A stretch of 57,881 bases of DNA from a virus. Numbering within the stretch: position 1 is the stretch's first letter; every line of letters begins with the position of its first letter. The notes beneath the pieces are model-generated. The model did no database searches, had not been told where the DNA came from, and worked only from the letters and a program-made list of their open reading frames with translations. The position numbers and the translations under genes were made by a program. The stretch is from IMG/VR virus record IMGVR_UViG_3300012002_000216, positions 1 through 57,881 of that record. One strand, written 5' to 3'. Of the stretch, positions 14,665-48,376 are shown piece after piece.

Positions 14665-15060
14665 ATGGAAGAAAAACAAGTTCTACTTGTAGATGACTCC
14701 ATCTCTCTTCATACGATGATTGAGATGTTTCTACGACAAAATGACAATCCTCATTACCAGCTATTCTCTGTTGTATCTGCACATGAGATGTTCTCGTACC
14801 TAGATCAACAAGCGATTAGTATAGTCTTGCTCGATATCGGATTATCAGACGGAAATGGGCTGCTATTGACCAAAACGATCAAGCAAACACATCCAGAGAT
14901 TGCGGTTGTTATTATAACGGCGAAGCTGGGAGATGAGCACGCGCAAGCGGCGCTTGAAGCTGGAGCCACAGACTTTCTTTCGAAGCCGTTTGATGGACAG
15001 AGTCTGCTTCAATGCCTTAATAGAATATCCTCATCACATAATACACCATCGAGGATATAA
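14665..15060 (+). CDS. CheY-like single-domain response regulator
   Basis: 131 residues, the length of a lone receiver domain. Key residues are all present: acidic pair D10-D11, phospho-acceptor D57 in VLLDIGLSDGNG, T85 in VIITA and K107 in LSKPF. No output domain. It overlaps the diguanylate cyclase by one base (TAATG), so the two are coupled and probably work together: phosphorylation by a host kinase could control the cyclase (inference). No histidine kinase is in the window. Such genes are rarely seen in phages. Confidence 0.9.
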   Translation: MEEKQVLLVDDSISLHTMIEMFLRQNDNPHYQLFSVVSAHEMFSYLDQQAISIVLLDIGLSDGNGLLLTKTIKQTHPEIAVVIITAKLGDEHAQAALEAGATDFLSKPFDGQSLLQCLNRISSSHNTPSRI

Positions 15061-16232
15061 TGGGTGTGTCATCCTTACATGAGTCCTCTTCGATAAAACT
15101 AGAACAACATCTGTTTTTAGTTGGCGCACTGTTTTACCCATTGTGGAGTCTTTTTCTAGCGATAGCAGTACCTACAGCGTATGATATAGCTAGCGGTAGA
15201 ATCGCAGTGGGGGTTTTTGGTCTTTGTTTATTACTATTAACCTATCGATTTGAGTGGGCACACCAAAGAACAGCTCTACTCAAATATCTATATGTATACG
15301 TAGGTACTGCGCAATTTGCTTCGCTCATCTATTTATCAAATGGATCAACAATCTACGCAATAGGAAACATTATTTTTAGCGCTGCGGTTTCAATGCTCTT
15401 CACGAAACCTCGCCCGTATGCTATATTTACTACGTATTGGATCCTCTTAAACATACTTGCAATCAGCCATACACCGATGTCACCTGATCATGTAGCGATG
15501 GTGTTTGGTGGTATACTTACGACACACTTTGTTATAGGCTATCTGCTTTATTCTAGAACAAAAGCCTTAATGCAGGTGGTAGAGCAACAAACTCGTGCAG
15601 ATGCACTACAGCGACAGATTTTAACACAAGAGTTGGAAAAGGCGAAAGAGTCCGCCGAAATGCTACGCAAAAGAGCCTATTACGATTTTCTGACTGGTCT
15701 AGCGAATCGCGCGATGTTTAGGGATACACTAAATCGTCAATTCGCAGCTGCTAGACGTACAGGATCTACCCTTGGCATTTTATTTATTGATCTAGATGGT
15801 TTCAAAGCTATAAACGATTCTCGAGGTCACGATGTTGGTGATTCATTATTGAAAGAGTTCGCCGTGCGTCTTGATCGATCATTAAGACAAGAAGATCTAG
15901 CAGCCCGAATTGGCGGTGATGAGTTTGCAGCGATACTATCAGAAATAAGTGACCCTCAGGATCCTGAGGTTATATGTAATCGCATTCTTGAAGAGGTGAG
16001 TACTCCGATCAAAGTTGGTGTGTATGAGTGTAAGATTGGAGCGAGCATTGGTCTTGCAATAACTCCACGTGCAGGTCAAGACCCAACAGAACAAATTCAT
16101 GATCCAGTAGATCTCATAAAGCAGGCTGATATCGCAATGTATGTTGCAAAGGAATCTGGAAAAAATGGATGGGTAAGCTACTCAGAAGAGCTAGCTTACT
16201 TGAATGCAAAGTCTTTCAGAAAGACTATCTAA
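15060..16232 (+). CDS. Membrane-anchored diguanylate cyclase (GGDEF)
   Basis: 390 residues. The N-terminal about 170 residues hold five to six hydrophobic segments, then a short coiled-coil signalling helix (about 178-205), then a complete GGDEF domain: DFLTGLANR, IDLDGFKAINDSRGHDVGD and the active-site GGDEF at 285-289. The inhibitory I-site RxxD (276-279) is kept with the usual 5-residue spacing. It should make cyclic di-GMP from two GTP at the inner membrane, with product feedback. No EAL domain. Raising host c-di-GMP would favour sessile, biofilm growth; the benefit to the phage is inference. Convergent overlap with the next gene at its stop. Confidence 0.92.
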   Translation: MGVSSLHESSSIKLEQHLFLVGALFYPLWSLFLAIAVPTAYDIASGRIAVGVFGLCLLLLTYRFEWAHQRTALLKYLYVYVGTAQFASLIYLSNGSTIYAIGNIIFSAAVSMLFTKPRPYAIFTTYWILLNILAISHTPMSPDHVAMVFGGILTTHFVIGYLLYSRTKALMQVVEQQTRADALQRQILTQELEKAKESAEMLRKRAYYDFLTGLANRAMFRDTLNRQFAAARRTGSTLGILFIDLDGFKAINDSRGHDVGDSLLKEFAVRLDRSLRQEDLAARIGGDEFAAILSEISDPQDPEVICNRILEEVSTPIKVGVYECKIGASIGLAITPRAGQDPTEQIHDPVDLIKQADIAMYVAKESGKNGWVSYSEELAYLNAKSFRKTI

Positions 16233-45301: not shown

Positions 45302-45797
45302 ACTCGTCTGTGTCATCCTTTTTTGTATCTTCTGATGAGTCCGATTTTGAGATCGATGTCGCCGTTTCTAGAAGCTGGTTAAGTGCTGTGAGTCCTTGCA
45401 ATATCTCTTTGTTAGCCGAATCATACACCTTTTGCGATGTTGATGCGCCATCCCGTTGGGCCTGTGCGTCAGCTTCATGTTTAGCTACAGCCGCTTGAGC
45501 GAACGGATTTATTAAGTTCGCTGTATCAACCGCATTTCCTTGAGATGTAACTTCAAGTAGTTTGATCAGTTGAGAAAAATTAGCTTCGGGAAGACGTGTT
45601 TGAATCGTTTCCTGAATAGATTGTTCAAATGTACGGTTTTCCTCCACGCACTTAAAGCTATGCTGTACAAAGTCTGACAAAGAGTCTTCAATAGCATTGA
45701 TTGGGTCGTCTATTTGTACGTTCTCTACAGCGGCTGACTCCTCTTTGGTAAGCTTTTGCTGTATCTTTTTGAGTGTCTCTACGCTTTTATCGTCCAT
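45270..45797 (-). CDS. Hypothetical protein
   Basis: 175 residues, helical, acidic, with a Ser/Asp/Glu-rich disordered tail (about 140-175). Unrecognised. Starts within the end of the upstream 45787-46227 gene, SD GGAG inside it. Confidence 0.6.
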   Translation of the reverse strand: MDDKSVETLKKIQQKLTKEESAAVENVQIDDPINAIEDSLSDFVQHSFKCVEENRTFEQSIQETIQTRLPEANFSQLIKLLEVTSQGNAVDTANLINPFAQAAVAKHEADAQAQRDGASTSQKVYDSANKEILQGLTALNQLLETATSISKSDSSEDTKKDDTDESSSPPEEENT

Positions 45798-46227
45798 CTT
45801 TTTGCTCCAATCCCCGCTTCGTTCGAATCTTATCTACAATATAGTCCAGGAATGTCTGTAATTGCTGCATACGAATACCATATTTTATAGTTGGTAGCTC
45901 AGGGTCACCAAGAATCTCTTTTATAGTACTCCACTCCTTGCCTTCGATATTTCGGTAATAGTAGCAAATAGCTAATTGAACTGTATCTTTGATATCTTCT
46001 CGTTCGGGAAACGTAACCGTTTGACCGTTTAGAAGACTCAATAAGTCCATGAATTTATCTAATCCTAAAAGATCGTATATTTCGACCAAGACCAATAGGC
46101 TCTCATCTTTCTCGGCATTCTTGAATAGGTGTAAGCGAATAAGGTCTTCAATCACGTCTTTAGAAGCATCAGTTTTTAGAGTGTCTTGCAAGCGCTGTTG
46201 AAAGACTGATTTTGCATCTTTGAACAT
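45787..46227 (-). CDS. Hypothetical protein
   Basis: 146 residues, all-helical, basic C-terminus (IRTKRGLEQKDGR). First gene of a two-gene minus-strand operon in the middle of plus-strand genes; SD AGGAGA and an ACTAATTA element upstream. The pattern of short helices could be a late regulator or scaffold but nothing is diagnostic. Confidence 0.6.
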   Translation of the reverse strand: MFKDAKSVFQQRLQDTLKTDASKDVIEDLIRLHLFKNAEKDESLLVLVEIYDLLGLDKFMDLLSLLNGQTVTFPEREDIKDTVQLAICYYYRNIEGKEWSTIKEILGDPELPTIKYGIRMQQLQTFLDYIVDKIRTKRGLEQKDGR

Positions 46228-46260: not shown

Positions 46261-46280
46261 GTGCGTTTAATTTGTCCAAC

Positions 46281-46736
46281 ATGTATATTATCACTATGAT
46301 ATCATCTAAGCACTTTGTGATAAATGATGGCCCGAATGCTGGTATTTATTGCAGCTATTGCGGAGAGAAACTCACTCCCCAAAAAGACGAAGAAACTGGC
46401 GCCTTCTATTATCAATGCACATGCGCAGACGCTAAAGCAGAGATTCATCTTCTCACTCAAAAAGAAGAGCTAGACGCAAAGGTAGAGAAGTTCTACGCAC
46501 AGCGTGAGAAAAAGATGAAGAGAATTCAACTTCTTGCACATCGTGCTAATATGGAGCTACAGATGCATGAGCTGTCCGAGGCTCTGGCTGAACTGAACGA
46601 CGATGAATCAGATCAAGAAGAATCAGATGAAATACCAGCTCCAAAACATTCCCCTCGACAACAGGTAGAGGAAATGGAAGGCAACTCTCTTAAGATGGAT
46701 GGACCGAAACTTCCTAAGTTCGAAAAGGAAGAGTAG
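46281..46736 (+). CDS. Zinc-ribbon and coiled-coil protein
   Basis: About 151 residues; the start is uncertain (TTG 46272, ATG 46281 or ATG 46296; none has a clear SD). An N-terminal zinc ribbon, CSYCGEKL and YQCTCADAK, is followed by a long coiled coil (about 55-110) and a charged tail. TAG stop; the frame continues through two more TAG codons (46764, 46788) to a TAA at 46809. Confidence 0.55.
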   Translation: MYIITMISSKHFVINDGPNAGIYCSYCGEKLTPQKDEETGAFYYQCTCADAKAEIHLLTQKEELDAKVEKFYAQREKKMKRIQLLAHRANMELQMHELSEALAELNDDESDQEESDEIPAPKHSPRQQVEEMEGNSLKMDGPKLPKFEKEE

Positions 46737-46859: not shown

Positions 46860-47147
46860 ATGGAATTACAAGCAATGAAAGAAAGTCTGAAGCACACCGC
46901 TGTAAGACTTCGCACTATCAAACAAGAAATTAAAGCCAAACAACGCGCTGGAATTGATTCCTTCCATCCGCAGCATAATTTACCCGCACTTAAAGCCCAA
47001 TACCGCTATATGCATATTGCGTACTGCGAAATGCGCGGAACACCGTATGAGCGGATTGAACCCTATGTTCGAGAAGGTAACGAACCATCTCGTGTGTACA
47101 TTGATGCATACAAGAAAAAGTACAGTGAGGAAGTAGCAAATGTCTAA
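46860..47147 (+). CDS. Basic helical hypothetical protein
   Basis: 95 residues, Lys/Arg/His rich with helices (HTAVRLRTIKQEIKAKQRAG). SD AAGGAG. Overlaps the Pth2-like gene by 8 nt, so the two are co-expressed. Nucleic-acid binding is possible from charge only. Confidence 0.65.
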   Translation: MELQAMKESLKHTAVRLRTIKQEIKAKQRAGIDSFHPQHNLPALKAQYRYMHIAYCEMRGTPYERIEPYVREGNEPSRVYIDAYKKKYSEEVANV

Positions 47148-47499
47148 ACAAGTGATTATCCTCAACATGGAGGCTGCTATGGGGGTGGGCCGTCTTGCGG
47201 CCCATGCCGCACATGCATCTATCGCTGTGCTACTGGATATGGGGGATTGGACTGATCACGATGCGTTTGAAATTGGTAATATCCCACATGCTATGAGTCG
47301 TTGGATGAAAGAAGCGTTCACAAAGGTTGTTGTTAAGTCCTGGGGGAACGAGGCTCTCAAAGAGTATCACTTTCAAGCACTTGACCAAGACATTCCCACC
47401 TCTCTTATCGAAGAAGATGGGTACGTGACTGCGGTTGCAATTGGACCCGCTGATGTAAGGGATATCGATCCAATTACTCGCACTCTTCCGCTATTGTAA
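47140..47499 (+). CDS. Peptidyl-tRNA hydrolase, Pth2 family
   Basis: 119 residues, the size of a whole Pth2 enzyme. Signature KQVIIL...MGVGRLAAHAAHASIAVL at the N-terminus, KVVVKSWGNEALKEYHFQAL in the middle and TAVAIGPADVRDID near the end match the archaeal/eukaryotic-type family, not bacterial Pth1. It frees tRNAs from abortive peptidyl-tRNA. Its place directly before tRNA genes suggests a role in tRNA recycling during infection. Confidence 0.8.
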   Translation: MSKQVIILNMEAAMGVGRLAAHAAHASIAVLLDMGDWTDHDAFEIGNIPHAMSRWMKEAFTKVVVKSWGNEALKEYHFQALDQDIPTSLIEEDGYVTAVAIGPADVRDIDPITRTLPLL

Positions 47500-47510
47500 G
47501 TATATTGATT

Positions 47511-47528
47511 GGTGATCGAAAGGTCACC
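47511..47528 (+). other. GAAA-capped hairpin before the tRNA
   Basis: GGTGATC-GAAA-GGTCACC, 7-bp stem with one G-U pair and a GNRA tetraloop, just upstream of the tRNA; possibly an RNA-processing signal. Similar GGTCACC/GGTGATC arms recur at 47818-47840. Confidence 0.5.
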
Positions 47529-47531
47529 AGT

Positions 47532-47604
47532 GCTCCTATAGCTCAGAGGTCAGAGCAGGGTACTCTAAATACTCTGGTCCTGGGTTCGAATCCCAGTAGG
47601 GGCA
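47532..47604 (+). tRNA. tRNA with anticodon CUA (amber-reading, suppressor type)
   Basis: Complete 73-nt cloverleaf. Acceptor GCTCCTA/TAGGGGC (one G-U), D arm GCTC/GAGC, anticodon stem GGGTA/TACTC with loop CTCTAAA, 5-nt variable loop, T arm CTGGG-TTCGAAT-CCCAG, discriminator A. Loop positions 34-36 read CTA, which pairs with UAG. No CCA is encoded. The amino acid cannot be told from the sequence. Confidence 0.88.
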
Positions 47605-47610
47605 GCAGAC

Positions 47611-47728
47611 AGCATTGTGGCGAAACGGTAAACGCTACAGAGCCAGAAACCGTTAAAATCGGCGAGTGGGCGGAGATGGAAAGTTGTTGGGGTGTTCCAT
47701 CATGCAGGTTCGAATCCTGCCAATGCTA
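47611..47728 (+). ncRNA. tRNA-like element, atypical middle
   Basis: Acceptor AGCATTG (47611-47617) pairs perfectly with CAATGCT (47721-47727); a normal T arm GCAGG-TTCGAAT-CCTGC precedes it and a D-like arm GCG...CGC follows the 5' strand. Between them are 67 nt instead of about 22, including a 7-bp stem GATGGAA/TTCCATC next to the T arm. No standard anticodon arm could be placed. Could be a tRNA with a giant variable arm or small intron, or a tRNA-like domain of a larger RNA. Confidence 0.5.
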
Positions 47729-47729
47729 G

Positions 47730-48118
47730 TGAGTCAACTGACAGCTACATGACTCAGGGGAACGATGCGTACTGCAGCAATGCGATCGTTTGCGACCGAA
47801 AAACCCTAGCTGGATCGGGTCACCGGAGGAACAGGTGATCGTCTGCTCATACGATAGTTGAGATACACAAGTAGGGAGAATAGCCCTACTACCGAGTCAC
47901 CGGGGAATCAGGTGGAATGGATGCGGCATTGCGAGGTTAGACAACGGAGGCTATTGCGCTCCCGAAGGGTCTGCCGAAACACCTCGCACATAGCTCTGAG
48001 GCGAGAGGCACACGCGGTAAGCGAAGTGAAGGCCGAGACAGTACCATGTAGCAATAGCGAAGGGTATAAGGCGCTACACTGACTTCACTCTTCGTAGGTT
48101 CGAATCCTACCAGTGCTA
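47730..48118 (+). ncRNA. Structured non-coding RNA ending in a T arm
   Basis: About 390 nt without a credible gene. Strong stems: TGAGTCA/TGACTCA (47730/47750), AACGAT/ATCGTT (47761/47785), GGTCACC/GGTGATC (47818/47834), AGTAGGG/CCCTACT (47870/47884), CACC/GGTG (47898/47911), TGCGAGGT/ACCTCGCA (47930/47981), AGTGAAG/CTTCACT (48025/48083), TGTAGC/GCTACA (48048/48073). It ends with a tRNA-type T arm GTAGG-TTCGAAT-CCTAC and CAGTGCTA, which can pair with AGCATTG at 47611 or GGCATTG at 47924. No match to tmRNA or RNase P cores. Possibly of the large ornate phage RNA type (GOLLD/ROOL-like); unproven. Confidence 0.6.
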
Positions 48119-48148
48119 TATTCTAGAAGACGGGAGGAAAATTCGCTA

Positions 48149-48376
48149 GTGTGGATTCGGTTTGAAGATCAAAAGCCAAAGTCCGGACAACATGTCTACT
48201 ATTACTTTGATGTTTTGGGGGTATTTGACGGCTACTATGAAGAAGCTTTTAGCGAAGAGTTAGGTACTATTGAAGAAATGTTTTATGGCAAACATGGTTT
48301 TCTCAGTGGTGGTGAAGTGACCCACTGGATGCCATACACACACGAACGACCGTCTAAACCAGAAATAGAGGATTGA
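48149..48376 (+). CDS. DUF551-like protein
   Basis: 75 residues from GTG 48149, chosen because GGGAGG lies 11 nt upstream and an earlier start would overlap the structured RNA. Begins WIRFEDQKPKSGQHVYYYF and ends VTHWMPYTHERPS, the typical DUF551 ends. Common in phages, function unknown. Confidence 0.75.
   Translation: MWIRFEDQKPKSGQHVYYYFDVLGVFDGYYEEAFSEELGTIEEMFYGKHGFLSGGEVTHWMPYTHERPSKPEIED

Follow-up and report, generated by a model that had tools for sequence, protein, structure and literature searches.

GOLLD and ROOL are large phage non-coding RNAs that are often encoded near tRNA islands, and the linkers of GOLLD sometimes hold tRNAs; the part of that account drawn on here (PMC12286853) names no tRNA-like closing ends among their features. 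The tmRNAs (RF00023 and the permuted forms) have a length of a few hundred nt and a closing domain made up of acceptor stem, reduced D arm and T arm, and also occur in phage tRNA clusters. Two tRNA-rich viral contigs encode tmRNAs, at L104:2636-3016 and L106:9426-9781, with a similar tag, AEDIMSIPTSLTRG... Atypical tRNA genes are a further relevant group, and T arms lying outside the genes called by ARAGORN are present in tRNA-rich phage contigs at L104:191, L104:3862 and L106:6760, where they possibly belong to divergent tRNAs missed by such finders. The locus described here resembles GOLLD and ROOL in its neighbourhood only, being phage-encoded beside a tRNA gene (47531-47606), and differs from them in its length of about 510 nt or less, in the lack of an Rfam match at E<=10, in its tRNA-like closing ends and in a fold that does not surpass that of shuffled sequences. 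It is closed in the manner of a tmRNA, but has no tmRNA match in Rfam, no tag frame and no G3-U70 alanine pair, and it carries an extra internal T arm. As in atypical phage tRNA genes, its 5' 118 nt score above the Rfam tRNA cut-off; however, these 118 nt have no normal anticodon arm and are followed by a second 3' half that shares the same 5' strand.

The window, meaning the whole stretch of DNA analysed, is a linear IMG/VR fragment of 57.9 kb from a large tailed phage, and encodes tail tube and baseplate genes, a DNA polymerase and a primase. Its longest non-coding gap, 649 nt without a protein gene, lies at 47500-48148, and the features of this region are all on the plus strand. A gene for a PTH2 peptidyl-tRNA hydrolase (47140-47499; Pfam PF01981, E 6e-19) is directly upstream of the tRNA block. 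Downstream, a protein gene with a GTG start (48149-48376) begins 31 nt past the RNA block, and its ribosome-binding site, GGGAGGAA, at 48132-48139, begins 14 nt past the end of that block. A coding explanation of the gap was rejected, since no stop-free frame of the RNA stretch has a credible Pfam match, and the earlier note was thus correct in placing no gene between the two T arms. The only tRNA that ARAGORN reports in the gap at default settings is an ordinary one at 47531-47606 with the anticodon CUA, for the amber codon TAG (Rfam tRNA, 65.6 bits at 47532-47604). Recoding of TAG, a possibility raised by this amber tRNA, was rejected, since TAG serves as the stop in 12 of the 50 ORFs of the window, and there is no sign of recoding within this part of the genome. 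Elsewhere in the window, the phage gene at 15060-16232 codes for a diguanylate cyclase domain of the GGDEF type (Pfam E 5e-45), for which a search of the closest relative gave no match.

In AT-rich genomes, RNA genes commonly stand out by raised GC content. The gap has 52% GC, compared with 35-46% in the other non-coding gaps of the window. In 60-nt bins, GC rises from about 43% to 47-62% across 47541-48080 and drops back after 48080, with the steps positioned close to the tRNA-like ends. Only the 360-nt windows that start at 47591-47781 reach at least 53% GC in the contig (mean 43.1%, sd 2.5%), and a value of 54% is over four sd above the contig mean. The longest and by far the most GC-rich gap is also the one with two T arms outside called genes, which argues for an RNA locus. 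Together with 52-54% GC in a 43% GC genome, the two T arms, their matching acceptor strands and the lack of a gene support a non-coding RNA locus with tRNA-like ends beside a tRNA gene.

The 5' end of the locus is the acceptor strand AGCATTG (47611-47617), and two separate 3' halves can pair with it. T arm 1, GCAGG-TTCGAAT-CCTGC (47704-47720), is followed by CAATGCT (47721-47727), which forms seven Watson-Crick pairs with AGCATTG, and by a discriminator A at 47728. T arm 2, GTAGG-TTCGAAT-CCTAC (48094-48110), is followed by CAGTGCT (48111-48117), which forms six Watson-Crick pairs and one G-U, and by a discriminator A at 48118, where the GC-rich block ends. Both TTCGAAT arms, the near-identity of their acceptor strands and the ability of each strand to pair with AGCATTG had been pointed out in the earlier note, and all are present in the sequence. 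By estimate, a 7-nt strand would pair with AGCATTG by chance, under standard rules, about once per thousand trials. The 3' halves (47706-47728 and 48096-48118) are identical at 21 of 23 positions, beating 1000 of 1000 shuffles, and of the two differences one stems from a C-G pair in T arm 1 that is T-A in T arm 2; this paired change implies that pairing has been kept in both copies. An orphan T arm was defined as one not inside an ARAGORN gene. In a scan of both strands of the window and other loci (2.47 Mb), 54 T arms were found, of which 44 lie within tRNA or tmRNA gene calls. Two of the ten orphans are the arms at 47704 and 48094, only 390 nt apart, and the other eight are distributed over about 2.4 Mb, both strands included; such a pair is far beyond chance.

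The first 118 nt (47611-47728) constitute a tRNA-like gene in their own right, detected by Rfam and by ARAGORN with introns allowed. In addition to a good acceptor stem and a good T arm, this unit has a D arm, GCG-AAACGGTAAA-CGC (47620-47635), with a 3-bp stem and a loop containing GG, which is evident in the sequence, the Rfam alignment and the ARAGORN fit and by eye is of the class II, Leu-like type. Just before T arm 1 there is a 7-bp hairpin, GATGGAA/TTCCATC (47675-47701; pair probability about 0.57). With 40.9 bits, the unit passes the RF00005 cut-off of 29 bits. However, it has no 5-7-5 anticodon stem-loop with a readable anticodon, the spacing between its D arm and T arm is about 67 nt rather than the usual 25-40, and 47 nt in the anticodon arm are left unaligned by Rfam. 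ARAGORN does not call it by default and fits it, as Ser(GGA), only with a 34-nt 'intron'. The claim that the locus does not fit a normal tRNA consequently holds for the abnormal anticodon domain, but not for the unit as scored by Rfam.

Acceptance of 47611-47728 as a tRNA by Rfam is in keeping with a pair of tandem, divergent or decaying tRNA genes, in which 47611-47728 would be an aberrant class II-like tRNA with an insertion in the anticodon domain, 48094-48118 would be what is left, at the 3' end, of a duplicated paralogue that has lost its 5' half to degeneration, and the middle would be a spacer or an unrelated structured RNA. The 91% identity of the 3' halves is as expected from duplication, and T arms uncalled by ARAGORN are found in other tRNA-rich phage loci as well. 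Moreover, 48050-48118 has a degenerate tRNA-like reading (antisense, tRNA-like model, 17.6 bits), including a D-arm-like GCG...CGC at 48057-48074. Nevertheless, the likeness to a 5' half at 48057-48078 is not significant, as 26% of shuffles equal it, the 48050-48118 candidate is too tight for a 5-bp anticodon stem, and 54% GC is unexpected for a plain decayed spacer in a 43% GC phage. Tandem tRNA genes are the main rival, about as likely an origin of the locus as the single long RNA preferred below. Neither 48005-48118 nor 48050-48118 qualified as a third tRNA-like unit, since five acceptor pairs or two mismatches are not significant.

Rfam searches of three overlapping stretches, at the gathering cut-off and at E<=10, returned tRNA matches, antisense tRNA echoes, one chance snoRNA match and nothing else. 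This check had been proposed in the earlier note, and the models for GOLLD, ROOL, tmRNA, RNase P and group I introns all went unmatched at E<=10, in agreement with its judgement that the locus does not fit tmRNA or RNase P RNA; group II introns likewise gave no match in the window at that threshold. A tmRNA was also rejected on its coding content: ARAGORN at a lowered threshold (40%) offered only EIHK, with 'tag not identified', and no frame closing with a hydrophobic degradation tag was found at the locus. The group I result is informative because the identical search gave 75.8 bits (RF00028) for an intron in a syntenic relative (L119:3300-4250), where it lies beside an apparent intein end within what seems to be a ribonucleotide reductase gene. 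The presence of that intron in a relative would be compatible with a single tRNA gene interrupted by an intron of roughly 430 nt, its 5' half extending from 47611 to about 47643 and its 3' half occupying about 48079-48118, and ARAGORN, with long introns allowed, does read 47611-48118 as tRNA-Val(GAC), the intron being 436 nt long. However, the anticodon stem of this fit has one mismatch and only three Watson-Crick pairs, no group I or II match appeared at E<=10 in a search that readily detects the intron of the relative, and a T arm that pairs with the same exon is unexpected inside an intron, making a split tRNA gene very unlikely.

Between the two 3' halves, the middle part (47729-48093, about 365 nt, 54% GC) contains several hairpins, and has no gene, homologue or Rfam family. 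A small hairpin motif, CGRGTCACCGGRGRAWCAGGTG, is present in two copies, at 47816-47837 and 47893-47914, which flank a strong hairpin at 47870-47890 and, according to the repeat search and pair probabilities, are able to pair locally or crosswise. The longest helix of the middle part, TGCGAGGT+TAGAC / GTCTG+ACCTCGCA (47930-47988), pairs 47930-47942 with 47969-47988 at a probability above 0.9. Excess folding stability was not found for the whole stretch against dinucleotide shuffles (z -0.31 and -0.65, in a test that excludes pseudoknots), nor did 100-nt windows inside 47601-48125 fold better than shuffles, whereas the controls, two phage tmRNAs and the amber tRNA, gave z -2.5 and z -2.1, respectively. 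Since the stretch as a whole has a folding energy normal for its composition, the listed stems are unusable as evidence; the 'at least eight strong stems' put forward as a special property of the locus amount to hairpins that are present but no more stable than those of shuffled sequences. In the predicted fold of 47611-48118, AGCATTG pairs with the distal 3' strand at a mean probability of about 0.9, and the constrained energies are -164.9 kcal/mol for distal pairing versus -158.0 kcal/mol for proximal pairing. The proximal half, with seven Watson-Crick pairs and transcribed first, is probably favoured by co-transcriptional folding.

The explanation preferred, with some hesitation, is an orphan phage non-coding RNA with a tRNA-like end domain that would be matured by tRNA enzymes; it may well be correct, although it falls short of being probable. 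The tRNA-like parts, their capacity to pair, the missing gene and the jump in GC are seen in the sequence; transcription, processing, a single long RNA and any function that it may have are inferred. The gap 47500-48148 would be an RNA-gene block transcribed together with its neighbours, in which the normal amber-reading tRNA comes first and a non-coding RNA with a maximum length of about 508 nt (47611-48118) second, the two ends of the latter folding into a tRNA-like domain. Its 5' part, made up of acceptor strand and D arm (47611-47635), could be closed by T arm 1, giving 118 nt, or by T arm 2, giving 508 nt. As in tRNA punctuation, RNase P would cut before 47611, with the acceptor/T-arm portion as its substrate, and tRNA 3' enzymes would trim after 48118 and possibly also after 47728, releasing an RNA of 118 nt and/or one of 390-508 nt, with tRNA-like ends that would protect it in the way known from tmRNA. 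The dominance of distal pairing in the whole-stretch fold, the paired change in the T stems, the rarity of orphan T arms elsewhere, the raised GC and the position among a tRNA gene, the PTH2 gene and a downstream gene with its ribosome-binding site all count in favour of this explanation. Against it are the folding z-scores, well short of the tmRNA controls, the ability of 47611-47728 to score alone as a tRNA with the same 5' strand, and the failure of every search to find a homologue, the closest syntenic relative having none of the block. A more specific version, in which a single RNA of about 508 nt with tmRNA-like ends and no tag frame has a 5' strand that switches between the two 3' halves to give a 118-nt or a long form, is rather unlikely. 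The earlier suggestion of one large RNA akin to the ornate phage RNAs is consequently upheld as regards an RNA locus with tRNA-like ends beside a tRNA gene, but neither a single large RNA nor kinship with those RNAs is backed by an Rfam match, by excess folding stability or by a homologue, and the 5' 118 nt score separately as a tRNA. A long RNA, if real, would be a phage product distinct from tmRNA that relies on the tRNA maturation machinery to make its ends, with a choice of two 3' ends built into it. If the locus is instead an aberrant tRNA pair, it would be further evidence of tRNA-like genes missed by finders in phage tRNA arrays.

Relatives were sought through the PTH2, GroEL, DUF6267 and baseplate proteins and the protein encoded at 45787-46227, and whole relative records were searched. 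The nearest are two viral contigs, G010 and G011, which are identical to each other where compared and are syntenic with most of the window (baseplate 55%, GroEL 51%, DNA polymerase 59%). At the matching place they have a homologue of the ORF at 46272-46736, one small ORF unmatched in the window and then GroEL; no tRNA is present there, and no sequence similar to the RNA block was found elsewhere in either contig. The segment 46860-48620, comprising a 95-aa ORF, PTH2, the tRNAs, the RNA and two small ORFs, is missing from the syntenic relative and is therefore accessory in this phage. The search for homologues in related phages that had been advised was likewise negative for phages and plasmids (blastn), viral contigs and species genomes, as was a search of viral and genome contigs for exact copies of the T-arm patterns. 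A search for the CGRGTCACCGGRGRAWCAGGTG hairpin repeat gave 10 matches, about the chance number estimated, none of them similar beyond the motif.

Absence of the larger block from a relative, together with foreign-looking GC, is also compatible with an inserted element or recombination, in which about 390 bp would have entered or been duplicated at the T arm, bringing their own tRNA 3' half and producing direct repeats like those at integrase sites within tRNA genes. The 23-nt direct repeat (21/23) of a tRNA 3' end, 390 nt apart, fits such an event. However, neither an integrase nor element ends were seen, a search of about 85,000 species genomes gave no exact 22-nt match to either 3' half, and a paired change has kept both T stems intact, which a dead att remnant would not show, so that an insertion is improbable. 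The locus is a real RNA locus with tRNA-like ends, seen once; the probability left over by the single long RNA and the tandem tRNA genes falls to an insertion, an intron or some other cause. In one of the nearest relatives (G011:58393-61984), an SbcC-like gene is apparently split, residues 1-38 lying about 1.4 kb upstream of the rest, which appears to reflect an insertion, an intron or a gene duplication.
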